A stretch of DNA of 64,000 nucleotides from Caballeronia turbans (GTDB lineage: Bacteria > Pseudomonadota > Gammaproteobacteria > Burkholderiales > Burkholderiaceae), in contig FCOD02000013.1 in assembly GCA_001544655.2 (NCBI GenBank), forward strand, positions 124,001 to 188,000. The letters are read 5' to 3'. Under the pieces are notes generated by a model. The model did not search any database, was not told the origin of the DNA, and saw only the letters and a list, made by a program, of their open reading frames with translations. Made by a program: the position numbers and the translations under genes. Shown here one piece after another: positions 61,076 to 64,000 of the stretch (the first letter of the stretch is position 1; every line of letters begins with the position of its first letter).

Positions 61076-62290
61076 CTAGTTGCAATATCCCTGCGACGCG
61101 AACGTACCGCCGCCGGGCGCCGCACCGCTGCACAGCGTATTCAGCAGCGATGCGATATTGCCCGAACCGTAATTGCCATACGTGGCGTTCGGATACTGCG
61201 TGTTCTGACGGAACTGCGACGCATAGTTATCCTTGGGCGCGTTCGGATCGGACGATCCCCACGATGTCACGCCGATGATCGCGAGATTCGACGAATTGCC
61301 CACCACGGCGCCGCCGGAGAGAACCGCATCGCGTGCCCGGAAGTTCACGATCCACGGTCCGCCGCTTGCGCCGCCCGTGAGATTGCTGCCCTGCCAGAGT
61401 TGCGATGCGCCGCTGACCGTCGTCGTGTAGGTCGGGCCATCGGTGCGCTGCATGATCGCGCCGCTGTCGAGCAACGCGGGATAGCCGAAGGTCGTCACGG
61501 CCGCCGTCTGAAGATTGCCGGTTTTCGACGACGATATGAAGGAATAGTTGTTCCAGCCATAGTTCAGATATCCGGTGATGTCGCCGATGAATTGATTCGA
61601 TGCGTTCTTCGCTATCGCGATCACCGCGATATCGTTGTTGCGCGCCGAACCCGATCCGGTGTCAGTGCCGTTCGCCCATGTCGATGGCCGCACGAGCCCG
61701 GCCCAGGTCCATCTGCCATAAGGCGCGATCTGCGCTGCGGTGGCTCCGGAAGCGCCGTAATGTCCCGGGATGAACTGCCAGCCCGAGAAGAGCGAGCTCC
61801 CGCTGCCGAACCCCTGGACGCAGTGCGCTGCCGTAACGATGACGCTTCTGCGAATCAGGCTCGCGGTGCAATATCCCGCGGAGAACGTGAGCTTGCCGAT
61901 CGCGCGATAGGGATAGGTCGTGCTGAGGTAATTCGCGCTCGTGGTGCCGGAGGCGCTTTGATTGCCGTCCTGCACGCGGCCGGTGGTATAGGGGATGCCG
62001 AAATCGCCATATGCTCTCGTCTGCGCATTGCTCACGATGCCGCTTTGCGTGTTCACGCCCGCCGCATAAGGTTCCGGACCGGTGTTCGGGACAATCGTGG
62101 ATGTGTCCGGAGGCAGAAGTACGTTGACGACCGGCTTGAGACTCGATACATCCGTCATCGCGGCGCGCGAGGCGGCAGGATTCGTATTCACGATGACTTC
62201 ATCTTCCGCATGTGCAACGTTTGCGCTCACTATCGACAGCGCGACAACCGCTGTCACCTCCACGCAGGCGACTCGTTTCGATCTTTGCAT
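61076..62290 (-). CDS. Secreted trypsin-like serine protease
   Basis: A 404-residue exported protein. The signal peptide ends at 'NVAHA' (residue 28). A Thr/Ser/Pro-rich propeptide-like segment runs to about 120. The chymotrypsin-fold domain has His156 ('VTAAHC', with the Cys141-Cys157 pair), Asp220 ('RNNDIAVIAIA') and Ser309 ('GGASGGPW', with Ala where most trypsins have Asp). The substrate is unknown. GGAGGGTG lies in front of the ATG at 62290, which supports that start over the open frame above it. Confidence 0.87.
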   Translation of the reverse strand: MQRSKRVACVEVTAVVALSIVSANVAHAEDEVIVNTNPAASRAAMTDVSSLKPVVNVLLPPDTSTIVPNTGPEPYAAGVNTQSGIVSNAQTRAYGDFGIPYTTGRVQDGNQSASGTTSANYLSTTYPYRAIGKLTFSAGYCTASLIRRSVIVTAAHCVQGFGSGSSLFSGWQFIPGHYGASGATAAQIAPYGRWTWAGLVRPSTWANGTDTGSGSARNNDIAVIAIAKNASNQFIGDITGYLNYGWNNYSFISSSKTGNLQTAAVTTFGYPALLDSGAIMQRTDGPTYTTTVSGASQLWQGSNLTGGASGGPWIVNFRARDAVLSGGAVVGNSSNLAIIGVTSWGSSDPNAPKDNYASQFRQNTQYPNATYGNYGSGNIASLLNTLCSGAAPGGGTFASQGYCN

Positions 62291-62513
62291 GACACCCTCC
62301 GGTTGATGAATACGATGTGTCTGATGAACATCGACTTTTCGTTGTTTGGTATTCCTAATTCTTATGAACATGTCCGTGGTCTGATTCGTCAGATGCTTGC
62401 GGGTGTCATTGCTTACGTCGAATGGAGATGACCCGGGTTCCGGCGCGCGCTTAACTTGGACGAATTCAAACGCATGCCGTGCAATCGATCAGGAAAGCGA
62501 ACAATAAATAACT

Positions 62514-62645
62514 CTAGTTCAAATTCTCGCCGATCTCGATCTGGTCTTTCGTCAGCGGATAGTGTCGGCGTCCTTCCGTCGTCTGACCGGTCGCGCGTTT
62601 GCTTTTGATCCGCGCGGGCATGGTCCGATTGGATATGCGGTTCAC
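62514..62645 (-). CDS. Possible small basic protein, 35-43 residues
   Basis: A short frame on the minus strand from ATG at 62621 (or GTG at 62645) to TAG at 62514. The C-terminal half reads 'TEGRRHYPLTKDQIEIGENLN', which looks like a genuine protein segment (basic turn, proline, acidic helix), while longer frames over the same bases do not. No family is recognised and no strong ribosome site is seen. Treat as a candidate. Confidence 0.35.
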   Translation of the reverse strand: MNRISNRTMPARIKSKRATGQTTEGRRHYPLTKDQIEIGENLN

Positions 62646-63031
62646 TGCACAGAGCTCGCTTGACGACAGCCTTTCCATACAGATAGCCTACACGCAGGCT
62701 ATAAACAGCTTTCGAAACGAAATCAGCGACAAGCCCCTTCTGCGCGGCTTCCGGATCAGGCTGCTTCTTCGACGCTCGACGCGGACGGTCGCAACGGCCG
62801 TCATTCCCGGTCATGACTTCGGCGAGCCAGATCGCGACGGGCGCACATATTCCGGCGCTCGCAATCGGCCGCAAACGTTCTCTGCGCGTTCGCGCACGGC
62901 GTGAAACGACGACGCCCTCGCCTCCGGTTGCGTACCGCACAGAACGCTACGTACAGCCTGTCATTCTTGCCCCACATCGCGTTTGACTCTCCAGGTGGAC
63001 GCGTGGCGAAGAAACACTTCAAGGGGCACAG
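62646..63031. other. Intergenic region upstream of the repeat protein
   Basis: About 390 bases without a convincing gene. It includes an inverted repeat ATAGCCT-N6-AGGCTAT (62683-62702), which could be an operator or leader hairpin. The last 40 bases hold the ribosome site AAGGGG of the following gene. Frames on both strands here are uncharacterised and lack family resemblance. Confidence 0.4.
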
Positions 63032-64000
63032 ATGAGTAATCCTAAAAAATTCAAATTCAATACCGCAATCAAGCTCAGCGTGATCGTGATCGCGGCGGCC
63101 ATGTCGAATCTCGCGTCGGCGCAAACGGCGGGGAATCCTTGCAGCAACCAGACTTCAGAGGGGTGTGTGCTGATCGGCCCCAGTGCCGTAATGACGGTTG
63201 CAGCGACGGACTCGTCGACGAGCGTAGCGCCGTCGACGACACCGACGGTCGATACGGTGTCGGCCGTCGTGCCTTTGCTCGAGGGCGGCCGCGGCGGACA
63301 GGGATCGCCCGGTGCGGGCTCGAGCGGCGGAAATTCCAGCGGGTCTGGCTCAGGCAGCGGTTCCGGGACAGGCACCGGCTCGGGACAGGGTTCGGCCAGC
63401 AGCGGTCCGGGCTCGACGGCGGGCGCTGGCGGCACGAACTCGGGCGGCGGAGGCAAGGGAACGGGATCGACCGGGAGCGGCAACGGCAGCTCGGGCCCGG
63501 GTGGTGGCGATTCCGGCGGCGGTGATTCGGGAGGAGACACCGGCGGCGATGGTCACGGACATGGTCATGGGCACGGTCACGGTCACGGCGATGGTGACGG
63601 CGATGGCGATGGTCACGGCCACGGGCATGGTCACGGCGATGGTGACGGCGATGGTCATGGTCATGGTCACGGCGACGGTGACGGCGATGGTCATGGACAT
63701 GGTCATGGCGACGGTGATGGCGATGGTCATGGACATGGTCACGGCGACGGTGATGGCGATGGTCATGGCCATGGACATGGTCACGGCGACGGTGACGGCG
63801 ATGGTCATGGACATGGTCACGGCGGCGGTGACGGCGATGGCGATGGTCACGGCCACGGGCACGGTCACGGCGATGGCCATGGCGACGGTCATGGTGATGG
63901 CCACGGCGACGGTCACGGTGATGGCCATGGGGACGGCCATGGTCATGGCGACGGTGACGGGGGACACGGCCATGGTGGAGTCGGCCACGGCGACGGCGGA
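63032..64000 (+). CDS. Exported Gly-His/Gly-Asp repeat protein, C-terminus beyond window
   Basis: The frame is open from ATG 63032 (AAGGGG five bases upstream) to the window end, 323 codons, with no stop. Residues 1-31 are a Sec signal ('LSVIVIAAAMSNLASAQ'). Residues about 32-83 contain two Cys ('NPCSNQTSEGC') and a Thr/Ser/Val stretch. Residues about 84-173 are a Gly/Ser linker. From residue 174 every second residue is Gly, and the others are His or Asp in blocks: three to six His, then three or four Asp. About 40 His and 31 Asp fall within 150 residues. Such density predicts strong binding of transition metals and perhaps Ca2+. No known family could be assigned; it is not the RTX nonapeptide. 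Confidence 0.8.
   Translation, partial: MSNPKKFKFNTAIKLSVIVIAAAMSNLASAQTAGNPCSNQTSEGCVLIGPSAVMTVAATDSSTSVAPSTTPTVDTVSAVVPLLEGGRGGQGSPGAGSSGGNSSGSGSGSGSGTGTGSGQGSASSGPGSTAGAGGTNSGGGGKGTGSTGSGNGSSGPGGGDSGGGDSGGDTGGDGHGHGHGHGHGHGDGDGDGDGHGHGHGHGDGDGDGHGHGHGDGDGDGHGHGHGDGDGDGHGHGHGDGDGDGHGHGHGHGDGDGDGHGHGHGGGDGDGDGHGHGHGHGDGHGDGHGDGHGDGHGDGHGDGHGHGDGDGGHGHGGVGHGDGG
63551..64000 (+). repeat. Tandem coding repeat, (Gly-His)n(Gly-Asp)n
   Basis: Coding tandem repeat with a basic unit of 36 bases in its central part (three Gly-His followed by three Gly-Asp, 63650-63830), with longer His blocks at the left and alternating His/Asp at the right. The unit is GGN-CAY or GGN-GAY codons, so the DNA is highly repetitive but synonymous positions vary. 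No stop appears in the reverse frame either, which produces a long false antisense frame. Confidence 0.85.

Follow-up and report, generated by a model that had tools for sequence, protein, structure and literature searches.

The right-hand end of the window (the whole stretch of 64,000 nucleotides analysed here) is occupied by a frame that opens at position 63032 on the forward strand and runs without a stop up to position 64000, its translation giving 323 residues of an apparently exported protein in which, over a long zone, glycine alternates with histidine or aspartate. It is preceded by a conserved block of DNA and, on the opposite strand, by the gene of a trypsin-like serine protease. The features of the locus are the following.

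61076..62293, reverse strand: trypsin-like serine protease (PF00089, E 8.2e-9 for the frame 61076-62371; the start at 62293 was placed by eye)
62869..62981, forward strand: conserved block, -163 to -51, seen in the upstream DNA of 19 distinct loci
62871-62886, forward strand: GCAAACGTTCTCTGCG, site within the conserved upstream block
62936-62946, forward strand: CGCACAGAACG, site within the conserved upstream block
62958-62968, forward strand: CTGTCATTCTT, site within the conserved upstream block
63032..63121, forward strand: signal peptide with Lys-rich n-region, hydrophobic core and SNLASA|Q, the cleavage site placed by eye
63122..63286, forward strand: mature N-terminus with Cys residues 37 and 45, a semi-conserved stretch up to PLLEGGRG (alignment A1)
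63287..63544, forward strand: Gly/Ser-rich linker, from the translation and present in the homologues translated
63545..63964, forward strand: Gly-His/Gly-Asp zone, residues 172-311, with HHHDDD blocks and then mostly HDHD (translation and dipeptide count)
63965..64000, forward strand: start of the GHGDGG zone, in a frame that runs on past the window

The signal peptide, the two cysteines and the Gly/Ser linker that an earlier note had read from the letters of the window are all found in the translation and the alignment. The signal peptide is mostly kept across 17 aligned homologues, and both cysteines of the N-terminus are invariant in all 17 rows of alignment A1. The same note had taken the gene to be cut by the end of the window, and the frame is indeed open at position 64000; a stop codon or frameshift just beyond, which would have spoken against its reading, does not occur in the next 696 bases. 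These lead, with the frame still open at a total of 555 residues, through GHGDGG units into a tail of GGN, GGH and GGS to the end of the contig, which falls within the repeat.

The strict Gly-X run of residues 172-311 consists of 70 dipeptides, in which X is His in 37, Asp in 31 and Gly in 2, and the 42 His and 33 Asp counted over codons 173-330 fit the earlier estimate of about 40 and 31, respectively, in 150 residues. The statement that every second residue is glycine from residue 174 on holds within residues 172-311, but not beyond about residue 311, where GHGDGG and then GGN/GGH units take over. Over the first 46 X residues His and Asp follow each other with a period of 6 (HHHDDD), with a lag-6 match of 0.75 that was equalled in 2 of 5000 shuffles, for a stretch picked by eye and with 12 lags tried; the period-6 order of this copy is more than chance. 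The remaining X residues are mostly HDHD. His or Asp occupies 68 of the 70 X positions while synonymous codons are mixed, His and Asp each using their two synonyms about equally; the third bases of the Gly codons are also mixed (C28, T32, A5, G5), in a run selected for Gly at alternate positions and hence uninformative on Gly itself. At the DNA level, the array contains tandem repeats with periods of 12-72 bases.

A query with the 96-residue N-terminus matched 17 of the 58 genus genomes, and a 17-row profile matched 19 of 398 family genomes, every one of them Caballeronia, one of the 25 genera sampled. The two genomes added by the profile, G029 and G033, have weak scores (E 1.4e-6 and 1.2e-5), and at the cut-off used the gene is absent from 39 of the 58 genus genomes. 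Homologues with a conserved N-terminus, on which the earlier note had made its reading depend, are thus present in 19 of 58 Caballeronia genomes and, judged by their alignment, the repeat gene is real, with a two-Cys N-terminus conserved among relatives. A scan of contigs gave at least one locus, in C. calidae, among the matches listed. A scan of plasmids by protein gave two records, of C. zhejiangensis and Caballeronia sp. NK8, where the copies sit on records called plasmids of 1.1 and 1.7 Mb, respectively, neither copy being annotated in the incomplete feature table consulted; the same scan by near DNA gave none. One relative is recorded with Anasa tristis as its source.

The loci compared number 20 (19 genomes and a second record of one of them), 7 complete and 13 incomplete. 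A stop codon is reached in the copies of G042, G035, G023, G016, G038 and G029, and the seventh complete copy is that of the C. zhejiangensis record L044, whose 300 upstream bases are identical to those of G057. The copy of G033 is broken by N, and 12 of 19 copies, including that of the window, run into the end of a contig inside the repeat, for which reason such genes are easily missed. The frame of L028 (G020) has, at its contig end, a closing peptide unlike the rest of the family, which we take to be sequencing-adapter read-through.

The seven complete copies are 411-679 residues long and largely share one order, namely signal peptide, two-Cys segment (with a Cys spacing of 8 or 7), Gly/Ser linker, GH/GD zone, GHGDGG units in most, and a Gly-rich tail, whose last residue is Arg in six of the seven. 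From residue 31 onward they contain 48-59% Gly, 8-15% His and 3-12% Asp, with 2-4 Lys plus Arg and 1-4 Glu; aromatic residues (8) occur in L046 alone. The number of His per copy is 52-92 in five, and 47 and 33 in the other two. The arrangement of these residues differs among relatives: L027, L031 and L046 are mainly alternating (GHGD)n, L046 being nearly pure; L038 has a short GH zone and just 12 Asp; and in L039 a GGGST zone passes into GHGDGG units without strict GH/GD blocks. Therefore, of the separate His (soft-metal) and Asp (hard-metal) blocks proposed by the earlier note, HHHDDD stands in the window copy, but the order of blocks is not constant in relatives. These comparisons indicate that the His and Asp blocks are variable with a broadly constant Gly/His/Asp make-up, and that relatives retain Gly together with His and, in most cases, Asp, rather than a block order. 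An anchor or autotransporter domain, also sought in the light of that note, was not seen in the seven complete copies, nor was an RTX repeat (inspection by eye, with Pfam on three).

In the longest Gly-X run of ten loci, 85 of the 844 X positions hold a residue other than His or Asp; L046 supplies 44 of these (out of its 208), leaving 41 of 636 for the other nine. Codons for Gly, His and Asp have mixed third bases. Because the runs were picked for their regular Gly and abundant GH/GD units, constraint is supported rather than measured. For the N-terminal 95 residues, dN/dS against 16 homologues (the two most distant copies being left out) is 0.20-0.69, values that point to moderate purifying selection on the N-terminus.

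The upstream DNA was compared in 25-base bins over 19 distinct loci, the duplicate L026 being excluded. Bins in -175..-51 have a mean majority of 0.76-0.96 and 2-13 invariant bases, 43 in total; bins in -600..-176 have a mean majority of 0.31-0.77 and 0-5 invariant bases each. GCAAACGTT, CGCACAGAA and most of CTGTCATTCTT are nearly unchanged over the 19 regions. Because the block is also kept in seven genomes in which the protease is absent (five) or lies elsewhere, on another contig (two), it belongs to the repeat gene, and its conservation suggests that it is probably the promoter/operator of this gene. Within it, CGTTCTCTGCG and CGCACAGAACG are near-perfect reverse complements with about 50-60 bases between them, and may be two sites for one regulator. 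An RNA stem linking the two sites was also considered; L039 and L046 change one arm while the other arm stays fixed, which makes two protein-binding sites more likely than pairing. The block is present in one copy in the genome; a search for a regulon with at most one mismatch gave 1 site for the upstream motif and 4 for a reversed control pattern, so that the motif marks no regulon here; the upstream region gave no Rfam match, and simple consensus patterns found neither a sigma-70-like promoter nor a terminator in 62372-63060. A weaker conserved stretch lies at 62632-62710, about 320-400 bases upstream, in which most relatives retain TTGACG and CATACAGATAGCCTAC. The gene looks both selected and regulated, given silent variation in a repeat whose Gly-[His/Asp] pattern is mostly retained and the conservation of about 110 bases upstream.

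The repeat gene seems to be solitary, with its own conserved upstream block. Downstream genes of five complete loci differ when compared by eye, except in the near relatives L033 and L034; Pfam found neither a metal gene nor an exporter among the five open reading frames between 56408 and 62940. In 12 of the 19 genomes carrying the repeat gene, the protease adjoins it divergently.

Searches against known families returned no identity. Against Pfam the repeat protein gave nothing above cut-off, a hit to CFAP143 (E 0.00088; 19.6 bits, cut-off 27) being rejected as a low-complexity match; in NCBIfam, MSCRAMM models scored 17.9-24.3 bits against cut-offs of 999-2500, again as low-complexity matches, so that no known repeat family, a clear match to which would have refuted the earlier reading, passes its cut-off in either collection. 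The matches to PDB sequences were designed helical proteins (best E 0.0021) and uninformative, and PADLOC gave no match for the first 168 residues or for the protease. The RTX reading, which the earlier note had also set aside, fails on the motif GGxGxDx(hydrophobic), with no occurrence in any of the 20 loci, and on Pfam in the proteins scanned. As to a C-terminal type I secretion signal or a neighbouring ABC exporter, the protein begins with an N-terminal signal peptide, and Pfam shows no exporter among the five window neighbours, those of the relatives having been viewed by eye. A lipoprotein is contradicted by the lack of L[ASTVI][GAS]C within the first 40 residues at all 20 loci, a protein of the LPXTG/MSCRAMM Sdr/Clf kind by the lack of LPxTG at the same 20 loci and of an A-domain match, and an autotransporter by the Gly-rich repeat in which all seven complete copies end, with no Pfam match in three.

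At E 1e-6 the repeat of the window matches 20 of 399 genomes of the order, and at E 1e-10 it matches 2 of 398 phylum genomes, its own genome included in both counts. The 27 matches from other genomes (26 listed for the order and one for the phylum) are GN, GV, GS, GT, GD and mixed Gly arrays, without a GH/GD array and with at most two Gly-His units each. Since a low-complexity query is badly scored, this absence elsewhere is moderate evidence, for the genomes sampled. Two of the frames met in this way are L054 (G686), a putative coding frame of 504 residues with a very long poly Gly-Asn array, and L080 (G1071), an autotransporter-like protein with 88 Gly-Asp dipeptides ahead of a C-terminal part recognized as a barrel by eye. 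The literature survey, confined to open-licence papers, turned up no account of a bacterial protein like this one. Within the reach of these searches, the repeat protein represents an unnamed family; in our judgement it is of a known kind, the Gly-rich, His-rich exported low-complexity proteins, and unusual in its ordered His/Asp units on a Gly lattice.

Several known systems share some of these traits. His runs with Gly and Asp occur as short tracts on folded proteins in HypB, UreE and the ZIP and ZnuA loops, whereas the repeat protein has no Pfam or NCBIfam match of such a kind. Staphylococcal SdrC, SdrD, ClfA and ClfB likewise carry a dipeptide repeat with Asp after an exported head, but have an LPXTG anchor and an A domain, neither of which is matched here, and the G1071 protein resembles ours in its long (GD)n within an apparently exported protein, but is without Gly-His and has a barrel-like C-terminal part (by eye) that is absent from the seven complete copies. 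The jaw protein MTP of Glycera consists almost wholly of Gly and His, binds copper and forms a material; it differs in being of animal origin and is not known to have Asp blocks. EAK16 and RADA16 are short peptides with Ala between charges, while the repeat protein has Gly in place of Ala and His as the positive residue, so that charge pairing would need acid pH. Charge orders of -+-+, --++ and ----++++ along their alternating sequence are described (PMC9964150), and HDHD and HHHDDD resemble these ionic-complementary orders. Alternation with ordered positive and negative charges is found as HHHDDD in the window copy and as HDHD in others. In the jaw of Nereis, a Gly/His-rich secreted protein is reported to bind zinc in a structural material; Nai11527 is 29% Gly and 16% His and begins with a signal peptide (PMC13120676). 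Nvjp-1 and Nai11527 are Gly- and His-rich like the repeat protein, a likeness by description; they are animal proteins for which the passages cited describe His-rich regions rather than Gly-X alternation with Asp.

On this basis we tentatively favour the view, with a probability of about 0.4, that the repeat protein is an exported, cross-linkable structural polymer, intrinsically disordered as its composition suggests. Such a protein would leave the cytoplasm via Sec; its two-Cys head would form a disulfide or a link between two chains, and its Gly-X arm would carry closely set side chains of His and Asp along a Gly backbone that is either flexible or extended. Such chains could then join reversibly through His-metal-His/Asp bridges with Zn, Cu or Ni and, below about pH 6.5, where His would be protonated, through pairing of His(+) with Asp(-) between chains, while the GGN/GGH tail would pack or hydrate as in other Gly-rich structural proteins. 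From this would arise a gel or coat, on the cell surface or within the matrix, that responds to metal and acid; the metal, charge pairing, gel and location are all suggested by composition and by the analogues (PMC13120676, PMC9964150). The signal peptide and the invariant Cys pair speak for a polymer, as does length variation (411-679 residues) with a broadly kept make-up, which is the behaviour of structural polymers. The Gly-, His- and Asp-rich composition with few Lys, Arg and Glu, the resemblance to ionic-complementary peptides and to the zinc-binding jaw protein, and the seemingly solitary gene with its own upstream block are further points in favour. Against it count the lack of any visible route through the outer membrane, anchor or partner, the absence of a metal gene among the five Pfam-scanned neighbours and the 39 of 58 genus genomes without a match at the cut-off used. 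The more specific form of this view, a natural bacterial block copolymer, that is, a silk-like exported material of Gly-His and Gly-Asp units with both acid charge pairing and metal bridging, we regard as unlikely.

The main rival is a non-structural one, in which the protein would be a disordered His/Asp sponge buffering Zn, Cu, Ni or Co in the periplasm or after being shed. His-rich metal buffers are common, and the high His content (above 50 residues in five of the seven complete copies), together with a signal peptide and no visible outer-membrane route, would suit one; however, no metal gene is found among the five neighbours scanned with Pfam (those of relatives were viewed by eye), and the long GGN/GGS parts of the tail are poor in ligands and would seem needless for a mere sponge, so that we consider this reading rather unlikely, if the strongest of the competitors. 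The tandem DNA periods, the variation of length, unit order and even of strict GH/GD blocks among relatives, the many foreign X residues of L046 and the occurrence of GN, GV, GS, GT and GD arrays in unrelated genomes raise the question whether a slipping, nearly neutral GC-rich repeat is all that is seen, its residues serving no exact purpose other than to make up an exported Gly-rich tail. The nine other loci, in which few X residues depart from His or Asp while silent sites are mixed, the purifying selection on the N-terminus and the conservation of the upstream block argue otherwise and make such a repeat distinctly unlikely.

An adhesive or surface binder of polysaccharide, plant or insect, with the two-Cys head or the Gly-rich tail as the working part and the GH/GD zone as a spacer, would agree with the head being the alignable, conserved part, with the poly-GD linker that precedes the C-terminal part of the G1071 protein and with the relative from Anasa tristis; yet the head is short (about 55 residues) and without a family match, and His is needless in a plain spacer, so that we think it improbable. 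Least probable of the named readings, and very improbable, is that the protein is a substrate or partner of the divergent protease, trimmed or released by it. Adjacency and co-occurrence invite this idea (with presence of the protease set at E 1e-60, 14 of the 58 genus genomes have both genes and 36 neither; Fisher p 5.5e-7, relatedness uncorrected), as does the final Arg of six complete copies, but five genomes have the repeat gene alone, three the protease alone and two carry them on different contigs, and the 2-4 Lys plus Arg per mature protein offer few trypsin-like sites. What probability is not taken up by the polymer, the buffer and the neutral repeat lies with these adhesive and protease-linked readings and with unnamed ones.

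If assembly or metal binding by the polymer is true, the gene encodes a protein material composed for the most part of Gly, His, Asp, Asn and Ser, with block order and length naturally varied over 19 genomes of a cultivable genus, and would offer a direct test of the way in which His/Asp blocks govern assembly in response to metal and pH. Caballeronia has environmental and insect-associated members; for these, the gene would represent a lineage-specific exported factor and, if the block-copolymer reading is true, a switchable matrix or coat unlike described bacterial matrix proteins.
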